In this document: piece after piece, positions 1,597-9,049 of the stretch | How the letters are laid out: each line of letters begins with the position of its first letter | How positions within the stretch are numbered: the stretch's first letter is position 1 | Source: Larkinella soli | GTDB taxonomy: Bacteria; Bacteroidota; Bacteroidia; Cytophagales; Spirosomataceae | Assembly (NCBI RefSeq): GCF_003703975.1 | Contig: NZ_ML112622.1 | Coordinates: 125,971-189,970, forward strand | Length of the DNA stretch: 64,000 bases | Direction: 5' to 3' | Notes under the pieces: generated by a model | Database searches by the model: none | Seen by the model: only the letters and a program-made list of their open reading frames with translations | What the model was told of the DNA's origin: nothing | Program-made: the position numbers and the translations under genes

Positions 1597-3369
1597 CTAT
1601 TTGACGCTGACGACCTGGCTAACCGTCGAAACGCCATTTTCATTGAAGGCTTCGACGGCAAACGAATACGGGACGCCCACGTTCAGCGCCCGGAGTTCAA
1701 GCCGGTTCGGCTGGTCGTTCCAGACCTGATAGGCCTGATACAGCTTGTCGGGCGCGATGCCCCAGAGTATGTTGTAGCCGACCGCGCCCGGCACTTTCTC
1801 CCAGCTGATATCGGCATTCCGCTGGTCTTTCTGCCGCACGGCCTTCAGCCCGGCCGGGGAAGCGGGCGCTTTGCCCAGCCCGTTGCCAAACACCCGAAAA
1901 CCGTTGACGGCGACGTAGGGGCCGGCGGTATACACGTGTTCGTAGCGGATGTACCGCGCCCGCACCGGAGCCGGCAGTTCGACGTAGGCGCAGGCCCGGT
2001 CGCGTTTGGGTTCCTGCGTCAGGTCGGCGATGCGGTCCCACTTTTTCCCGTCGCGGGAGGCAAAGAGCCGGAACTGGGTGTAGACCGTCGAATCGCTGTC
2101 GAAGACGTTGTTTTTATAATCGACGTAGTTGACCTGAACCGCCCGGACGTCGTGGTCGGCGCCGAGGTCGGTCGTGAGGGTTTCGCCGGGGCGGTTGCGG
2201 GTCGGCACCCAGAAGGTACGCGGGTTTTCATCGACGGTCAGTTCGGCCCGCAGGGTGTCGAGGGTCGAGGAGGCCGTGACCGGTTTTTTGTAGTTCAGCA
2301 GCATCCAGCCCGTAAACAGCTCGTTGCTGTTCTGCCATTTTCCGGTCGGCAGGCGGTGCGGAAAGTCGCCGAACCGGGTGTTGGCATACATCTGGTCGTC
2401 TTTGTCGAAACCGGCGGGGTGCATCACGATCCGGCGCTCCATGCCCCAGACGATGCCCAGCCAGGTGGTGCCGGTATTCCAGTAGTTGCCGAAATGGTCC
2501 TGGAAGGTATTTCCGTGGCCGGTGCCGGTGGCATACCCGCCCGGGCGGTAGGCCACCGGGTTGTAGGGGGCATATTCGAAGGGCCCGAGGGGGTGTTTCC
2601 CGACATACGTACCGTTGGCGTAGACGTTGTATTCGGTGCCGGGAGCGCCATACTGGAGGTAATACTTCCCGTTGTGCTTGGTCATCCAGGCGCCCTCCAC
2701 AAACGGTTTGATGGGGTCGGAGTGGTTCGGACCGAACCGTTCCCAGCCATGCTGCCAGGGGTCGAGCCAGAACATGGGCTGATAGGCTTTGGAGGGTTCC
2801 GGGTTGGCGTAGGTCAGACGGCGGCCGTGGTCGAGTTCGGCGCCGAACACCGGGTAAACGTTCGAGGAACCCCAGTACATATACCATTTGTCGGTATCGG
2901 GATCGTGGAACAGGGCGGGGTCCCAGGGGCCGATGTCCTTCGGAAGCCGGGGCAGCCAGCGGTTGTAGAACTTCAGTTTGCCCTGCCCCGGCTCGGTCGA
3001 GTAGAAAATGGGCCGCTGCTCGAAGGTCGACTGGAACAGAAAGAGCGTATCCCGCACCGACAGGGCGGCCGGCGCACACATATCCTCCATGGGCCACTTG
3101 TCGGGCACGACATACTGCCAGCCGACGAGGTCTTTCGACTTCCACCAGCCGCCCGAGATGGTGACGAACAGAAAGTATTCTCCCTTGTGGGCGATGATGA
3201 CCGGGTCGGCCCCGGACCGGTAGGAGATTCTTTCGTTCAACTGCTCGAAATTGTACCGATAGCTGATGTCCATCGGGTTACAGTACGTGCGTTGCTGGGC
3301 CACGGCCCCGGCGGCACAGATCCACAGCAGTCCAAGGCACAGAGCCCGTTTTCCAAACGCGATTTTCAT
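1597..3369 (-). CDS. Secreted GH43-family glycoside hydrolase with discoidin and Fn3 domains
   Basis: The 590-residue protein starts with a signal peptide (cleavage near residue 24, AAGAVA then QQ). Residues about 50-350 form a five-bladed propeller typical of GH43, with the likely triad Asp55 (SGADPV), Asp150 (GPWDPA) and Glu225 (FVEGAW). Residues about 360-495 resemble an F5/8 type C (discoidin) carbohydrate-binding domain and about 505-590 a fibronectin type III domain. GH43 enzymes cleave arabinose, xylose or galactose linkages by inversion; the exact substrate is not readable here. It stands alone, convergent with the MFS gene, and no SusC/SusD pair is nearby, so it is not in a classical polysaccharide-utilisation locus in this window. 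Confidence 0.85.
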   Translation of the reverse strand: MKIAFGKRALCLGLLWICAAGAVAQQRTYCNPMDISYRYNFEQLNERISYRSGADPVIIAHKGEYFLFVTISGGWWKSKDLVGWQYVVPDKWPMEDMCAPAALSVRDTLFLFQSTFEQRPIFYSTEPGQGKLKFYNRWLPRLPKDIGPWDPALFHDPDTDKWYMYWGSSNVYPVFGAELDHGRRLTYANPEPSKAYQPMFWLDPWQHGWERFGPNHSDPIKPFVEGAWMTKHNGKYYLQYGAPGTEYNVYANGTYVGKHPLGPFEYAPYNPVAYRPGGYATGTGHGNTFQDHFGNYWNTGTTWLGIVWGMERRIVMHPAGFDKDDQMYANTRFGDFPHRLPTGKWQNSNELFTGWMLLNYKKPVTASSTLDTLRAELTVDENPRTFWVPTRNRPGETLTTDLGADHDVRAVQVNYVDYKNNVFDSDSTVYTQFRLFASRDGKKWDRIADLTQEPKRDRACAYVELPAPVRARYIRYEHVYTAGPYVAVNGFRVFGNGLGKAPASPAGLKAVRQKDQRNADISWEKVPGAVGYNILWGIAPDKLYQAYQVWNDQPNRLELRALNVGVPYSFAVEAFNENGVSTVSQVVSVK

Positions 3370-3614: not shown

Positions 3615-4484
3615 ATGAAGAGTAACCTACTGAAATCCCTTCAGAAAAAAAAGAAACAAATTTTAGAACTCTGGATACAGAATCAGCTGACGGACCCCAA
3701 CCTGCGGGAGGACCTGATGAGCAATACCGAACTCCGCGTGCAGTCGGACGAGTTGGTGGACGTTTTTCTGAAAAATCTGAACGACACCAACCTGACGGAA
3801 CCGGATTCGCCTGATTTTGAGCCGGTCTTCGAAATTCTGGCCGGCATTTCCATCTCCCGGGCGCGGCAGGGCTTTTCTCCGCGCGAAACCGGCATTTTCG
3901 TATTCAGCCTGAAAGAGGCCCTGCTGGAAATTCTGCGGCAGGAGCTTCCGGACGACCCGCTCCAGCTCTATAATGAGAGCATGAAAATCAGCCGGCTGAT
4001 CGACAGTTTCGGCATCAATACCTTCGAAACGTTTATCAAAGGCCGTGAGGAAGTTATCCTGCGGCAAACCGACGAAATCGCCGAAATCTCCACCCCCGTG
4101 ATCCGGGTCTGGGACGGCATTCTGGCCCTGCCGATCATCGGAACCCTCGACAGCTCGCGGACGCAGGTGGTGATGGAAAACCTCCTGCAGGAGATCGTCG
4201 AAACCGCCAGCGGCATTGCCATCCTGGACATTTCGGGCGTCCCGGCGGTGGACTCCCTCGTGGCCCAGCACCTGATCAAAACCGTCAGCGCCACCCGGCT
4301 GATGGGGGCCGAATGCATCATCAGCGGCATCCGGCCGGAAATTGCCCAGACGGTGGTTCACCTCGGCATCGATCTTTCCGGCATCGTTACCAAGGCAACC
4401 CTGGCCAGTGCGCTCAAATACGCCTTTTCGCTCCAGCAAATGGAGGTGAAGCGCATTCGTCAGGAAAGAAAGTACATCGACTAA
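3615..4484 (+). CDS. rsbR: Stressosome sensor/scaffold RsbR
   Basis: In known stressosomes RsbR and RsbS build a large cytoplasmic particle that holds the kinase RsbT until stress. This 289-residue protein has a variable helical N-terminal sensory half (about 1-155) resembling the RsbRD-type N domain (motif ILELWIQ near 16-22). Its C-terminal STAS domain (about 160-280) includes LDISGVPAVDS and ISGIRPEIAQT, both typical of RsbR. By alignment to Bacillus RsbRA, the two regulatory threonines (Thr171 and Thr205, 34 residues apart) correspond to Ser180 and Ser214 here, also 34 apart, so both sites are serines. It is first in a tight operon; rsbS follows after 8 bases. The family call is secure; what the N-domain senses is unknown. 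Confidence 0.93.
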   Translation: MKSNLLKSLQKKKKQILELWIQNQLTDPNLREDLMSNTELRVQSDELVDVFLKNLNDTNLTEPDSPDFEPVFEILAGISISRARQGFSPRETGIFVFSLKEALLEILRQELPDDPLQLYNESMKISRLIDSFGINTFETFIKGREEVILRQTDEIAEISTPVIRVWDGILALPIIGTLDSSRTQVVMENLLQEIVETASGIAILDISGVPAVDSLVAQHLIKTVSATRLMGAECIISGIRPEIAQTVVHLGIDLSGIVTKATLASALKYAFSLQQMEVKRIRQERKYID

Positions 4485-4492
4485 ACCCTTTT

Positions 4493-4885
4493 ATGGAGAA
4501 AATCCCTATCCTCCGAATGGGGCCGTTTTTGCTGGTCACCATTCAGATCGATCTTTATGACCGGCTGGCGCTGAATCTGGAAGCCGACCTGGTGCAAATG
4601 GTAAACAAAACCGGCGCCCGGGGAGTTTTAATCGATATCTCAGCCGTTTCCATCGTCGATTCCTTTATGGGCCGGATCATCGGAAACATCGCCAGTATGT
4701 CCAAAATCCTCGATGCCGAAACCGTTGTTGTGGGTATGCAGCCGGCGGTCGCCATCACCCTGATCGAGTTAGGACTCCCCCTCAAAGGTGTACATACGGC
4801 CCTGAACGTCGAAAAAGGAATGGAATTGCTGAAGTCGAAAATTGGTCCCGAAGAGGAATCCGACGACGATGGTGACGCTGACTAA
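4493..4885 (+). CDS. rsbS: Stressosome scaffold protein RsbS (STAS domain)
   Basis: RsbS is the single-STAS-domain partner of RsbR and the direct binding site of RsbT. The 130-residue product contains LIDISAVSIVDSFMGRI; Ser57 in VDSF matches the serine (Ser59 in Bacillus) that RsbT phosphorylates to dissolve the complex. The start MEKIPILRMG was chosen because it gives the canonical RsbS length; the frame stays open upstream only inside rsbR. An acidic tail (EEESDDDGDAD) extends past the STAS fold and is not typical of Bacillus RsbS. The end overlaps the rsbT start by 17 bases, consistent with translational coupling. Confidence 0.93.
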   Translation: MEKIPILRMGPFLLVTIQIDLYDRLALNLEADLVQMVNKTGARGVLIDISAVSIVDSFMGRIIGNIASMSKILDAETVVVGMQPAVAITLIELGLPLKGVHTALNVEKGMELLKSKIGPEEESDDDGDAD

Positions 4886-5279
4886 GGACCGAATGATGAT
4901 CCTGAAAGACCAGGACGTGGTTCCCTTCCGGAACCGGGTGAAGGAGTATGCCGTCCGGATCGGAATGGGGCTGGTCAACCAGACCAAACTGATCACGGCC
5001 GCCAGCGAACTGGTCCGGAACATGCTTCGGTATGCCCAGCAGGGTGAAGTTTTCATTGAAGTGGTCACGCAAGGGCGGGAAAACGGCGTGCGGCTCACTT
5101 TCGTGGACAAAGGCCCGGGCATTCCGGACATCGAACTGGCCATGAAAGACGGATATTCCACCCACCGGAGCATGGGGCTGGGCCTGCCCGGCACCAAACG
5201 ACTGGTCAACGAATTCGAAATCCGGAGCAAGGTGGGCGAAGGAACCGTCATTACAATTTTAAAGTGGAAGAATGGTTAA
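4869..5279 (+). CDS. rsbT: RsbT serine/threonine kinase (stressosome switch)
   Basis: RsbT phosphorylates RsbR and RsbS and, once released, activates the downstream partner. The 136-residue protein is a complete GHKL ATPase. It has an N-box ELVRNMLRYA with Asn51, a G1 box VDKGPGI with Asp80, and a glycine lid SMGLGLPGTKRL at about 101-112. The ATG at 4869 (MVTLTKDRMM) matches normal RsbT length; an in-frame codon 27 bases earlier would add an unneeded extension. It overlaps rsbS by 17 bases and the next gene by 8. In Bacilli the target is the phosphatase RsbU; no RsbU or SigB-like gene is present in this window, so the target here is probably the kinase encoded two genes downstream (inference). 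Confidence 0.92.
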   Translation: MVTLTKDRMMILKDQDVVPFRNRVKEYAVRIGMGLVNQTKLITAASELVRNMLRYAQQGEVFIEVVTQGRENGVRLTFVDKGPGIPDIELAMKDGYSTHRSMGLGLPGTKRLVNEFEIRSKVGEGTVITILKWKNG

Positions 5280-6285
5280 CCCTTACCACGTCGCCTTCAA
5301 CGCCACCGATCGAAGTTACCTTGCGATTCTGAAAAGGGAGATTCATCTTCTGGTGGGTCAGTTGAAGTTCAGTACGAAGAGAGCGGGCGAGATCGATATC
5401 ATTGTGGCTGAAATGGGGTCCAACCTGGTAAAACACGCCGGCGGGGGCGAAATTCTCGTCCGGATTCTGAAAGAGCCTGAACCGGAAGGAATCGAGCTGA
5501 TCAGCATCGACAACGGCCCCGGCATGGCCGACCCCGGCCGCATGATGACCGACGGCGTCTCCACCAGCCAAACCCTGGGCCACGGCCTAGGCGCCATCAA
5601 ACGCCTTTCGGACGTATTTAATCTGTATTCGACGCCGGAATGGGGCACCGTCCTGCTGGCCAGAATCTTTAAGAAACCTCCGGCCAGGGGGGCGTTGAAT
5701 CCGCGGGCGGAAGTCCGGTCGGTCATCGTGCCGAAACCGGGCGAAACCGTCAGTGGCGACGGCTTTTCCAGCCAGTTGTCGACCGAAACCCTGCGGCTCT
5801 TTCTGGGCGACGGGCTGGGGCACGGACCTGAGGCCGGGGAAGCCGTTCGGCAAGCCGCGGTATCGTTTCAGGAAAGCCGCGAAACCCAGCCCGTCGAGAT
5901 CATCCGGCAGATGCACCGCGCCGTTCGAAAAACGCGGGGACTGGTCGGGACGGTCGCGGCCTTTGATTTCAGCACCCGCAAATGCCGCCTGTGCGGAGTG
6001 GGTAATATCACGACCCGGTTTCATCTGGGTCCCCATTCCAGAAATTACCTGTCCTACAACGGCATTATCGGACTCAACGTACCCGGTACGATGAACGATC
6101 AGGAATTGACGTTTGAAAGCGGCCATGTGATGATCATGTGCTCCGACGGCATCAAATCCCGATGGGATATATCCAGATATCCATCCATATTAAAATACGA
6201 TCTGTCCGTTCTGGCGGCCGCCCTGTATAAGGATTATGCGCGTCGAACCGACGATACTTCCGTGGTGATTGCCCGATTTTCCTGA
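5272..6285 (+). CDS. rsbX: RsbX-like PP2C phosphatase with N-terminal ATPase domain
   Basis: In stressosomes RsbX removes the phosphates from RsbR and RsbS and resets the switch. This 337-residue version is much longer than Bacillus RsbX (about 200) because residues 1-135 form a second RsbT-like GHKL domain, apparently intact: N-box Asn51 in EMGSNLVKHA, Asp80 in IDNGPGM, lid TLGHGLGAIKRL. Residues 150-337 are the SpoIIE/PP2C-type phosphatase with the metal-binding aspartates in SGDGF (163), LGDGLGHGPE (180), CSDGIKSR (292) and RTDDTS (327-328). The start ATG overlaps the rsbT stop by 8 bases. Fused ATP-binding SpoIIE-family phosphatases are known in many phyla; the partner of the extra ATPase domain is unknown. 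Confidence 0.9.
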   Translation: MVNPYHVAFNATDRSYLAILKREIHLLVGQLKFSTKRAGEIDIIVAEMGSNLVKHAGGGEILVRILKEPEPEGIELISIDNGPGMADPGRMMTDGVSTSQTLGHGLGAIKRLSDVFNLYSTPEWGTVLLARIFKKPPARGALNPRAEVRSVIVPKPGETVSGDGFSSQLSTETLRLFLGDGLGHGPEAGEAVRQAAVSFQESRETQPVEIIRQMHRAVRKTRGLVGTVAAFDFSTRKCRLCGVGNITTRFHLGPHSRNYLSYNGIIGLNVPGTMNDQELTFESGHVMIMCSDGIKSRWDISRYPSILKYDLSVLAAALYKDYARRTDDTSVVIARFS

Positions 6286-6288
6286 GCC

Positions 6289-7998
6289 ATGCACGAAATT
6301 GCCAAAGTCGCCTTAGAAAATGAGATGGACCTGATTCTGGCGCATAAACGCGCCATGAAACTGGGCGAACTGGCAGGGCTGTCTCTGGCTTCACAGACCA
6401 TATTTGCCACGGCCGTTTCGGAAGTTGCCCGGAATGCCATCGATTTCGGCGTCGACGCCTGGCTGACGCTCGGCATCACCTCCGGCAGCGAAGCCGACCG
6501 AAGCATGGTGGCCTGCATCAACGACCGCCGGCCGACCGTCTCCGACAAGGAAACCGAGGGCCTCAACAACGCCCGCCGGCTGGTCGACGAATTTTATTTT
6601 CAGGAATCGCCGAAGGGTTTTGAAATCAGCCTCCTCGTTCGGTTTCCGGCCAGCTACCGCGTCAGCGAAGCCCGGATCGAGGCCTGGAAGCGGCAGTTCA
6701 TCGCCCAGACGGCCGTTTCTCCCTACGAAGAACTGCGCGGCAAAAACCGCCTGCTCCAGGAACTGGCCGAACGGCTCCGGGCCAGCGAAAAACAGTACCA
6801 GCTTCTGACGAATTCGCTGCCGCTGATGATTTTTTCGGTGACGAACGACGGTCAGGTACTATACGCCAACGACTGGATGGTGCAGTTCACCGGATGCCCG
6901 ATCGACGAACTCAATTCGACCGAGTGGCGAACGGTCATCCACCCCGACGATCTGGAAGCCGGCTGGAAAAACTGGCGCCAGGCGACGGCCGACGGTAAAC
7001 CGTTTCAGAGTGAGGTCCGGGTTCGGCAGGCGGCTACCGGAGCCTACGTCTGGCACCTGGTGTCCACCTCTCCGCTGCGGAACGAACAGAATGAGATCCA
7101 GTACTGGTCCGGGTTCATGGCCGACATTCAGGCTCAGAAAACGGTGGATCAGACCCTGCGGGCCAACGAGGAACTGCAGGAAACCAAGATGCAGCTCGAA
7201 CAGTACCAGAACGAACTGAAGATGAACATCGGGGAGCTGAACCGCAGCAACCAGGAGCTGGCCGAGTTTGCGTACGTGGCCTCGCACGACCTTCAGGAAC
7301 CTCTGCGCAAGATTCAGTCGTTCGGGACGCTGCTCCTCGAAAACTTTGCCCCCGAACTCAGCCCGACGGCGCAGGACATGATCCACCGGATGCATACGGC
7401 CGCCGAGCGGATGCATGGGCTGATCAAGGACCTGCTCTCCTACTCCCGGCTGAACACCTACCGGCAGCCGTTCCGGCCCGTCGACCTGAATGTGCTCGTG
7501 AAGGAAGTTCTGGGAGATCTGGAGATTACGGTTCGGGAAAAAGGCGCGAAAATCCTGACCGAGCCGCTGCCCGTCGTGAAAGGCAATGCGCTGCAGCTGA
7601 GGCAGATGTTTCAGAACCTGCTGTCCAACGCCCTGAAATTTACGACGGCGGATCGGGCCCCCGTCATCAGTGTTCAGACCGCAGAGATGGCCGCCGGCGA
7701 CGTTCCGGTTTTCCTGCGGCATCCCGAACCGCACTATCTGGCCATCCGGGTGGCGGATAACGGCATCGGCTTCGACGAAAAGTACCACGACCGGATTTTT
7801 CAGCTTTTCCAGCGTCTACACGGCAAAGACCAGTATTCCGGCACCGGCATCGGGCTGACCATCTGCAAGAAAGTGGCCGAAATGCACGGAGGGACCATCG
7901 GCGCCCAGGCGCAGCCGGGACAGGGAGCTACCTTCACCATCTATCTCCCCAACAGCTCCATCGTAGAATCGGTCCTCCGTACGAAACCGGGGGCTTAG
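6289..7998 (+). CDS. PAS sensor histidine kinase with N-terminal RsbT/RsbW-like domain, likely stressosome output
   Basis: This 569-residue soluble kinase ends the rsb operon, 3 bases after rsbX. Domains in order: an anti-sigma-type GHKL-like domain (1-140), a short coiled segment, PAS (about 165-285), a coiled coil (about 285-325), HisKA with phospho-acceptor His333 in VASHDLQEPLRK, and a complete HATPase (N-box QNLLSNALKF 442-451, G1 ADNGIGFDE, G2 SGTGIGLTICK). The N-terminal GHKL domain keeps an N-box (SEVARNAIDFG, Asn49), but its G1 region reads NDRRPTVSD without the DxGxG motif and its glycine lid is absent, so it probably does not bind ATP and may act as a docking module. No membrane segments and no adjacent response regulator are seen. 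The kinase family is certain; its role as stressosome output is inferred from operon position. Confidence 0.88.
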   Translation: MHEIAKVALENEMDLILAHKRAMKLGELAGLSLASQTIFATAVSEVARNAIDFGVDAWLTLGITSGSEADRSMVACINDRRPTVSDKETEGLNNARRLVDEFYFQESPKGFEISLLVRFPASYRVSEARIEAWKRQFIAQTAVSPYEELRGKNRLLQELAERLRASEKQYQLLTNSLPLMIFSVTNDGQVLYANDWMVQFTGCPIDELNSTEWRTVIHPDDLEAGWKNWRQATADGKPFQSEVRVRQAATGAYVWHLVSTSPLRNEQNEIQYWSGFMADIQAQKTVDQTLRANEELQETKMQLEQYQNELKMNIGELNRSNQELAEFAYVASHDLQEPLRKIQSFGTLLLENFAPELSPTAQDMIHRMHTAAERMHGLIKDLLSYSRLNTYRQPFRPVDLNVLVKEVLGDLEITVREKGAKILTEPLPVVKGNALQLRQMFQNLLSNALKFTTADRAPVISVQTAEMAAGDVPVFLRHPEPHYLAIRVADNGIGFDEKYHDRIFQLFQRLHGKDQYSGTGIGLTICKKVAEMHGGTIGAQAQPGQGATFTIYLPNSSIVESVLRTKPGA

Positions 7999-8032: not shown

Positions 8033-9049
8033 TCAATACCGCTCCAGGGTCTTCCGGAGCGACTCTTTCAGTTCCTGCGCCAGGCTCTCCGGCTCCAGCA
8101 CCCGGACGTGCTCGCCATAACTTCGGAGGTGCATGAGCAGGTCACGGTTGGGGGCCAGCCGGAGCCGCACCACACACTCGCTTTCATCGTCGCGCAGGAC
8201 TTCCTGGGTCTGGTGAATCGGCTTGGCCCGGACATACCGTCCGAACAGGGGTGAAAACGAAAGAACAATGGCCTCCACCGGGCCGCTGCTGTCGGTGATG
8301 CCGTAGATATGTTCGAAGAGTTCGGAAACGTAGGCCAGGACGGCGGGCGGCACCTCGCAGGGTTCGTCGAGCGTCTCCAGGTCGCTCATTCGGTCGAGGG
8401 CGTAGGTTTTCTCCCGCCCGGCCGAAGCGTCGTAGCCGATGACGTACCAGCTGTCGGCTACCTCCCGCAGTAAAATCGGGTGCAGCGTCCGCAGGCCGGA
8501 GGCCGACCCGGGATCTTCATGTTTGCGGTATTGAAAGTGCACCTGCCGGTTCTGGTTGATGGCCCGGATCAGAACCGGAACATACTGGCGGTTCCCGCCC
8601 AGGATCTTCTCCTCCACGTATACCACCCGACGGGCCGGACCCGTCTCCCCGCCCGGTTCGGTTTTGACTTCCCGGATGATGTCCAGACTCTGCCGGACCT
8701 TCTGCAGGGCGTTGGTGAGTTCGCCGGCCACCGAGTCGCCCTGCGTGGCCGCCAGCACCTCCCGGGCATAATCCAGCGCTTCCATGTCGTCGGGCGTCAG
8801 CATGAGCCGGAGTAGCCGGAACTGCGGGTCGGTGTAGTAGTAGCCGTTGCTGCGCTTACAGTAGGCGATGGGCGCATCGTGATCTTCGCGCAGCCGCTGA
8901 ATGTCTTTTTCCAGCGACGACATGGACCGGATGCCGCAGCGGTCGCGGCAAAGCTCGAACAGCGCCTGTTTGGAATACCGGCGCGGATAGCGGCTGATGA
9001 TTTCGTCGATCAGGCGGTAACGCTGGAAGGCGGATCGGGTCAGGGGCAT
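8033..9049 (-). CDS. WYL-domain transcriptional regulator
   Basis: The 338-residue protein has an N-terminal winged helix (about 5-70, including SMSSLEKDIQRLRED). A WYL domain follows (about 145-235, with DSWYVIGYDASAGREKTYAL in place of the W-Y-L signature), then a C-terminal WCX extension. WYL regulators bind nucleic-acid-type or nucleotide ligands and control DNA damage, defence or metabolic genes. It is convergent with the stressosome kinase. An 8-bp perfect inverted repeat lies 73 bases upstream of its start codon (9122-9142) and could be its operator (inference). Target genes are not evident; the divergent neighbour at 9224 is one possibility. Confidence 0.85.
   Translation of the reverse strand: MPLTRSAFQRYRLIDEIISRYPRRYSKQALFELCRDRCGIRSMSSLEKDIQRLREDHDAPIAYCKRSNGYYYTDPQFRLLRLMLTPDDMEALDYAREVLAATQGDSVAGELTNALQKVRQSLDIIREVKTEPGGETGPARRVVYVEEKILGGNRQYVPVLIRAINQNRQVHFQYRKHEDPGSASGLRTLHPILLREVADSWYVIGYDASAGREKTYALDRMSDLETLDEPCEVPPAVLAYVSELFEHIYGITDSSGPVEAIVLSFSPLFGRYVRAKPIHQTQEVLRDDESECVVRLRLAPNRDLLMHLRSYGEHVRVLEPESLAQELKESLRKTLERY

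Follow-up and report, generated by a model that had tools for sequence, protein, structure and literature searches.

The histidine kinase encoded by the fifth gene of an rsbR-S-T-X-K operon in Larkinella soli begins with a conserved pseudo-ATPase domain; the parts are known ones and their arrangement is new. This domain, referred to here as K-N, is predicted to share the fold of the switch kinase RsbT and has lost the motifs of the ATP site; positions at which it is otherwise conserved have changed in relatives that have no rsbRSTX genes (RSTX) at their loci. We give a probability of about 0.5 to the reading that K-N is a pseudo-RsbT by which the kinase (K) docks to the RSTX stressosome, with RsbR/RsbS as the most likely site. 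The features of the operon are collected in Table 1, where positions refer to the window, the whole stretch of 64,000 nucleotides that was analysed.

Table 1. Features of the rsbR-S-T-X-K operon and the adjoining gene in the window; residue numbers are those of K.
Feature	Position	Strand	Evidence or remark
RsbR	3615..4484	+	RsbRD_N PF14361 8.7e-27; STAS PF01740 1.3e-14
RsbS (STAS)	4493..4885	+	PF01740 8.3e-7
RsbT, intact GHKL switch kinase	4869..5279	+	PF02518 7.1e-14; AF2 pLDDT 92.2; SpoIIAB Z 19.4
RsbX-like: intact RsbT/RsbW-like N-domain (~residues 1-130 of RsbX) and SpoIIE/PP2C	5272..6285	+	PF13581 3e-9; PF07228 1.6e-10
Kinase K, 569 aa: N-domain, PAS, HisKA, HATPase_c	6289..7998	+	Pfam
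N-domain of K (K-N), residues 1-140, degenerate RsbT-like GHKL, putative 'pseudo-RsbT'	6289..6708	+	AF2, Foldseek, profile match
N-box remnant of K-N, residues 41-49, TAVSEVARN	6409..6435	+	Counts in 104 K N-domains
G1 remnant of K-N, residues 78-86, NDRRPTVSD	6520..6546	+	Profile alignment
alpha-3 of K-N, residues 86-98, after the 6-residue loop; ATP lid deleted	6544..6582	+	DSSP of the model
C-terminal helix of K-N, residues 127-141, into linker and PAS	6667..6711	+	AF2 model
PAS of K, residues 169-280	6793..7128	+	PF00989
HisKA of K, residues 324-389	7258..7455	+	PF00512 2.3e-10
Catalytic HATPase_c of K, residues 433-555, intact	7585..7953	+	PF02518 3.1e-28
'GH' neighbour gene, adjoins the operon	1597..3369	-	Also beside the kinase in 8/8 RSTX-less loci

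Residues 1-144 of K matched no Pfam family (E up to 1), no NCBIfam family (E up to 0.01) and, in a single-sequence search, no PDB entry; the A4 profile found no PDB chain by sequence either. The AlphaFold2 (AF2) model of K-N, built on an alignment of 76 sequences, has a pLDDT of 90.2 and a pTM of 0.85, and it runs from a strand through two long helices, two strands, a loop of six residues, a helix and two further strands to a C-terminal helix, which is the alpha/beta sandwich of the GHKL fold. Its best structural matches (Foldseek/VIA) were RsbW (Z 14.0 over 109 residues), SpoIIAB (12.9), UsfX (12.6) and SiaB (10.3), with the Leptospira regulator LvrC (9.5) and domains of histidine kinases such as DesK (8.1 or less) lower down. 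When the RsbT of the same operon was modelled in the same way, it had the same leading relatives with higher Z scores, and a stretch of lower confidence where K-N has its short loop. The preliminary description had set residues 1-140 beside RsbT as a GHKL domain, and the predicted structures agree with it. Comparison of profiles (hhalign) gave an E value of 3.9e-13 and a probability of 97.9 for K-N against RsbT, and a non-significant result (E 0.0088, probability 4.6) for K-N against the N-domain of RsbX. The profile match, the predicted fold and the position of the gene behind RSTX in 69 of 80 loci show that the likeness to RsbT is not due to chance.

The ATP site is degenerate in the window and throughout the 104 unique relatives that were examined. 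In the profile alignment NDRRPTVSD is placed against DKGPGIPD of RsbT, the Asp and Pro being retained and both Gly lost. Counted from the Asp of G1 to the conserved Arg in the G2 helix, the 104 K N-domains have 16-21 residues and 95 RsbT proteins have 32-33, so some 13 residues, including the ATP lid, have been deleted; in the models, 25 residues lie between strand 71-80 and helix 106-112 of RsbT at the place of the six-residue loop. The loss of the glycines and of the lid had been recognised in the preliminary description, as had the intactness of RsbT and RsbX: the N-box Asn, the Asp and Gly of G1 and the Gly of G2 are all present in 95 of 95 RsbT and 93 of 93 RsbX N-domains. K-N in the window lacks the DxGxG of G1, the G2 motif and the lid, and no convincing case of any of them was found among the 104; a D-x-G-x-G string near G1 in one protein (L109), which has no G2, is judged to be a chance hit. 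Asp79 of G1 is found in 76 of the 104. The statement that the N-box is kept, with Asn49 as its sign, has to be corrected, since Asn occurs at this position in just 22 of the 104 domains, that of the window included, with Tyr, Cys, Thr, Asp, Leu and others in the rest. Asn49 of the window is thus a leftover and not a constraint, and the residues of the N-box that are kept are Ser44, Glu45 and Arg48. The RsbT-type combination of Glu, Asn and ATP site was not found in K-N, where Glu45 stays and the ATP-site motifs are gone. From these motifs we infer that K-N is probably unable to bind ATP. The earlier picture of three GHKL domains, two intact and one dead, stands for RsbT, the RsbX N-domain and K-N; a fourth, intact one is the C-terminal HATPase_c of K itself.

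Around this decayed site, certain residues are almost invariant in the 104 domains: Thr41 (104), Glu45 and Thr37 (103 each), Gln36 and Asp14 (102 each), Ser44 and Arg48 (100 each). Seven of the kept positions are common to RsbT and not to RsbX (D14, Q36, T37, T41, A42, S44 and R48), and Glu45 is common to both. We propose that K-N retains an RsbT-type surface around alpha-1 and alpha-2, made up of Asp14, Gln36, Thr37, Ser44, Glu45 and Arg48. For Listeria innocua RsbT, the accessible text of PMC9237128 proposes Glu45 as the catalytic base, turned towards RsbS; docking models there put it at Ser56 of RsbS and set another RsbT on RsbR, where the ATP site of this RsbT falls short of the target Thr. 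Judged from the motif, this Glu would be at the same position as Glu45 of K-N. Those models favour docking of K-N, as do its RsbT-type residues, the loss of the G1 glycines and lid, and a fold that is that of switch kinases binding STAS domains (RsbW, SpoIIAB, UsfX, SiaB). Six further conserved residues of K-N, L15, H19, M23, E27, F39 and A40, have no counterpart in RsbT, and this counts against docking by an RsbT-type surface.

The former pocket could also have been re-purposed for another ligand, for example a nucleotide without a requirement for the triphosphate, held by Glu45, Asp79, Thr41 and Arg48, which, by homology with GHKL anatomy, we take to lie along that pocket. The retention of Thr41, Glu45 and Asp79 (in 104, 103 and 76 of the 104 domains) fits such a role, but Asn49 varies and so, to a smaller degree, does Asp79. 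Moreover, kinases at loci without RSTX show changes at the conserved polar residues. This points to a protein as the partner, and we regard a re-purposed pocket as quite improbable.

The linkage of K-N to RSTX was followed in 80 named loci, the best 80 of 211 relatives found, from Spirosoma, Chitinophaga, Niastella, Flavobacterium, Chryseolinea and others. RSTX lies upstream of the kinase in 69 of these 80; three loci have part of it and are near contig ends, and eight have none within the flank examined. K-N was found in 30 of 150 genomes of the family, in 9 of 395 genomes of a class sample (one of the nine, G796, having an intact domain) and in 10 of 395 genomes of a phylum sample (two of the ten being weak: the intact domain of G337 and a stand-alone RsbT in G348). 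In 42 of the 80 named loci the gene directly after K codes for a REC-like protein, identified by motif. The window has at this place a gene convergent with the operon that encodes a regulator with WYL/WCX domains (8033-9049, minus strand), where many relatives have the REC-like gene. K-N is not universal: in Xanthomonas vasicola and Variovorax the kinases linked to RSTX are without an N-domain of this kind, and this weighs against docking by K-N. The N-region of an RSTX-linked hybrid kinase of Vibrio sp. THAF191c (L222:7957-8376) has by eye the look of a decayed GHKL domain, and single-sequence profile comparisons gave it no support (E 0.23 and 0.1).

The loci vary in layout. Sediminibacterium roseum has two tandem rsbR-S-T sets followed by one rsbX and K (L122:1604-4993), and in a contig of a Spirosoma metagenome-assembled genome (MAG) K is split over two reading frames (L094:2819-4505), either in reality or by an error of assembly. 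In one family of loci (f4; L159:6563-7771, L160, L216 and L217) K measures only about 400 aa; HisKA-like sequence follows closely on the N-domain, and a PAS domain seems to be absent. A MAG of Chitinophagaceae has K and a REC-like gene with no RSTX in the upstream flank examined (L097:5974-7641).

Eight kinases of the genus Larkinella (L032, L033, L035, L044, L048, L054, L055 and L056) have no RSTX at their loci. These orphans are full-length reading frames in all eight cases and adjoin the same 'GH' gene as the operon of the window. The gap between 'GH' and K is 214-708 bp (3,730 bp in L055), and no convincing remnant of RSTX was found in it (best tblastn E 0.017). Five of the eight genomes (G071, G043, G091, G082 and G108) returned no match to RsbS and no stand-alone RsbT, the RsbT profile matching there weakly and in frames of at least 372 aa; the other three (G058, G100 and G016) have a complete RSTXK operon elsewhere. 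In a tree of 30 kinases, those of 600 aa or more having been left out, the eight form one clade whose sister is the kinase of the window, which has RSTX. The catalytic core of the orphans is 73-77% identical to that of the window kinase, compared with 54-62% for other operon kinases, and the corresponding ranges are 41-54% against 47-51% for the N-domain and 46-54% against 40-50% for PAS.

The kinase of the window keeps all 20 N-domain columns of a first contrast, for which 100 of the 104 sequences were retained after duplicates and lengths outside 480-720 aa had been dropped. Because its columns were chosen on the operon set itself, that contrast is biased, and it was repeated with 21 held-out columns, which were chosen on 61 other kinases that lie mostly, not wholly, outside Spirosomataceae; L097 and six listed Spirosomataceae rows, where present, were excluded from the held-out set, and the comparison set was made up without seven distant rows (L057-L063). 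With the caution that cell counts in both contrasts are not independent, 23 of 168 N-domain cells were changed in the orphans and 5 of 378 in a set of 18 kinases from operons of the family, and there was no significant difference in PAS (2/56 against 1/126), HisKA (8/144 against 9/324) or HATPase (11/192 against 25/432). Substitutions were also counted as events by parsimony on the kinase tree and compared by a binomial test. Eleven N-domain events fell inside the orphan clade (tree length 1.16), one on its stem (0.12) and eight elsewhere (9.03), an excess with p 1.3e-6 without the stem and 6.6e-7 with it. Events inside the clade and elsewhere numbered 0 and 11 for HisKA, 1 and 7 for HATPase, and 2 and 1 for PAS (p 0.04). 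Those in the orphan N-domains are at M13, D14, M23, Q36, T37, S44, E45 and R48, and S44L, E45Q and R48Q are changes of the orphan type.

These patterns of substitution show a loss of constraint on K-N where RSTX has gone. Since conserved N-domain positions change in the orphans, the surface of K-N appears tied to RSTX, and on a plain reading it would be kept because of something in RSTX. The suggestion that the dead domain had become a binding domain gains indirect support in this way. Several observations temper the case for docking. PAS is mildly relaxed in the orphans too, and given this excess and the low identity of PAS, part of the signal may reflect a general relaxation of the sensory half of the protein. 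As all eight orphans belong to a single clade, RSTX may have been lost just once in their history, and three of their eight genomes still carry RSTX elsewhere. At least one changed position, M23, is not of the RsbT type. The kinase of L097, which is without RSTX nearby as judged from the flank of its locus, keeps S44, E45, R48 and Asn49. A relic or structural element, aiding dimerisation or folding of the kinase and linked to RSTX by inheritance of the operon, would agree with the absence of ATP-site motifs and with the full-length frames of all eight orphans; such an element should not, however, shed its best-conserved polar residues at loci without RSTX when the catalytic core is unchanged, and we regard it as improbable.

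The choice of partner was approached through correlated distances in 92 operons. The partial r of K-N was 0.32 with the C-terminal part of RsbX (RsbX-C), 0.28 with the kinase core, 0.26 with RsbR, 0.16 with the RsbX N-domain, 0.09 with RsbS and -0.16 with RsbT, with at least one non-overlapping pair of rows given a capped distance. No partner is singled out by these values: RsbR is not separated from RsbX-C or the kinase core, and this, together with the low value for RsbS, counts against docking at RsbR/RsbS. The value for RsbX-C, the smaller one for the RsbX N-domain and the place of rsbX directly before the kinase gene would be in keeping with binding of K-N to the N-domain or phosphatase of RsbX and direct regulation of K by RsbX. 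K-N keeps residues of the RsbT type and not of the RsbX type, and RsbR and the kinase core correlate with it about as strongly, so that we consider RsbX a very improbable partner.

K-N might instead be a receptor for free RsbT, forming a GHKL-GHKL heterodimer when RsbT is released and taking the place of the RsbU N-domain of Bacillus. Its homology with RsbT allows this, and SpoIIAB and RsbW, its relatives in fold, form homodimers; the positions that K-N has in common with RsbT may just as well derive from an ancestral homodimer interface that now serves for a heterodimer. RsbU is described as being activated when RsbT binds to the N-terminal domain and linker of RsbU (accessible parts of PMC12143880). 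The distances of K-N do not track those of RsbT, 200 of 200 permutations lying at or above the partial r of -0.16 in what is a weak test. In the accessible text of PMC9237108, a test for interaction of Vibrio vulnificus RsbT with the downstream kinase VvD1 had no positive result; VvD1 may lack a domain of the K-N kind, and for an RSTX-linked kinase from a different Vibrio the match to K-N was not significant. We think such a receptor unlikely.

The phylogeny of the three domains goes against the proposal that duplication within the operon gave rise to K-N. With residues from the window as query, related kinases were found in plasmid records of Sphingomonas aliaeris, Paraburkholderia, Deinococcus psychrotolerans, D. 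radiodurans and Phaeobacter, and they stand behind genes of the STAS-STAS-ATPase-phosphatase type where the record shows upstream genes. In D. psychrotolerans K is at the start of the record and RsbS near its other end; the kinase of P. aromaticivorans is short, and the upstream genes sought at that locus were those other than RsbR. The N-box Asn and DxGxG are kept in all six plasmid-record N-domains read, and the intact form is also present in two genomes of the phylum Bacteroidota (G337 and G796). The cluster of D. radiodurans MP1 (L202:5974-7707), which is of the RSTXK type and on a megaplasmid, has its intact RsbT-like N-domain on the kinase DR_RS15590, and a second, REC-HisKA kinase comes next. 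In a midpoint-rooted tree of a chosen subset of 88 domains, with 24 degenerate K-N representing the 104 and with G796 left out, the degenerate domains are sister to those of Paraburkholderia (100/100), then Sphingomonas (92/94), then Deinococcus (61/91). This group is apart from RsbT and RsbX, and the kinase domains of Phaeobacter and G337 are outside it, nearer RsbT. Together with the non-significant profile match to the RsbX N-domain, the tree leads us to reject a local duplication of rsbT or rsbX as the source. RsbT, the RsbX N-domain and K-N are, on this evidence, old paralogues that travel together as RSTXK. Since the closest neighbours of the degenerate domains in the tree are intact K N-domains from other phyla, the fusion of an RsbT-like domain to a kinase is old and may have happened more than once, and loss of the ATP site followed at a later time, in one lineage of Bacteroidota.

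The modules into which K-N would fit are widely conserved outside Bacillales, in several phyla (Heinz et al. 2022, PMC9237108). In its accessible text, the RsbU N-domain is present on some downstream proteins and absent from most of those examined; the route to the latter is left open there, with the suggestion that RsbT may perhaps phosphorylate a downstream kinase. The accessible part of PMC4976288 calls the partner of Vibrio brasiliensis RsbT unknown, and that of a 2025 eLife paper (PMC12143880) treats RsbU_N on histidine kinases. Figure 3 of PMC9237108 aside, no downstream kinase with an RsbT-like domain was found described in the freely accessible literature. Such a head domain, which some phyla have in intact form and a lineage of Bacteroidota in ATP-dead form, is a testable link for part of the outputs that have no RsbU_N, and the positions changed in the Larkinella orphans indicate which residues to mutate.

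If K-N does dock to the stressosome, it would most likely sit on the STAS surface of RsbR/RsbS that RsbT uses, without phosphorylating either protein. Under stress, RsbT would phosphorylate RsbR and RsbS, and RsbX would reverse this; the altered phosphorylation could change the docking of K and with it the autokinase activity of K, whose signal would be handed to a response regulator such as the REC-like protein encoded after K in many of the named loci. The partner, the direction of control and the relay are the parts of this scheme that we infer. One could go further and regard K as a stressosome-borne histidine kinase, held by an ATP-dead mimic of RsbT on the RsbT sites of the RsbR/RsbS shell, so that K would be a subunit released or switched by phosphorylation of the shell in place of a free RsbT seeking a target of the RsbU type. 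The intact versions of Deinococcus and Proteobacteria would then be ancestral, the kinase bringing its own second RsbT. We hold this extension to be possible, with odds a little short of even.

K-N resembles RsbT in fold, in part of the residues of alpha-1 and alpha-2 (QTxxxTAxSExxR) and in its operon. It differs in lacking the G1 glycines and the lid, in having mostly lost the Asn and in being fused to PAS-HisKA-HATPase, and it does not branch with RsbT but groups with the K N-domains of other phyla. The intact RsbT-like kinase N-domains (D. radiodurans DR_RS15590, D. psychrotolerans, Sphingomonas aliaeris, Paraburkholderia, Phaeobacter, G337 and G796) have the same place as K-N in the operon and in the protein; they keep the Asn, DxGxG and the G2 motif, whereas K-N is without DxGxG and G2. 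In six of seven such kinases scanned, the best stretch of Pfam HATPase_c_2 is inside the intact N-domain, a region that has no Pfam match in the kinase of the window; the Phaeobacter kinase has two such stretches, the better one being C-terminal. SpoIIAB and RsbW, the best structural matches to K-N (Z 12.9 and 14.0), are free-standing, ATP-binding proteins that act on sigma factors. The N-domain of RsbU is helical; residues 1-144 of K matched no family of Pfam or NCBIfam, and the fold predicted for K-N is GHKL. According to the accessible parts of PMC9237108 and PMC12143880, the RsbU N-domain is, like K-N, N-terminal, and it couples the stressosome to an output enzyme; it is a dimerisation domain to which RsbT binds, whereas K-N is itself RsbT-like.
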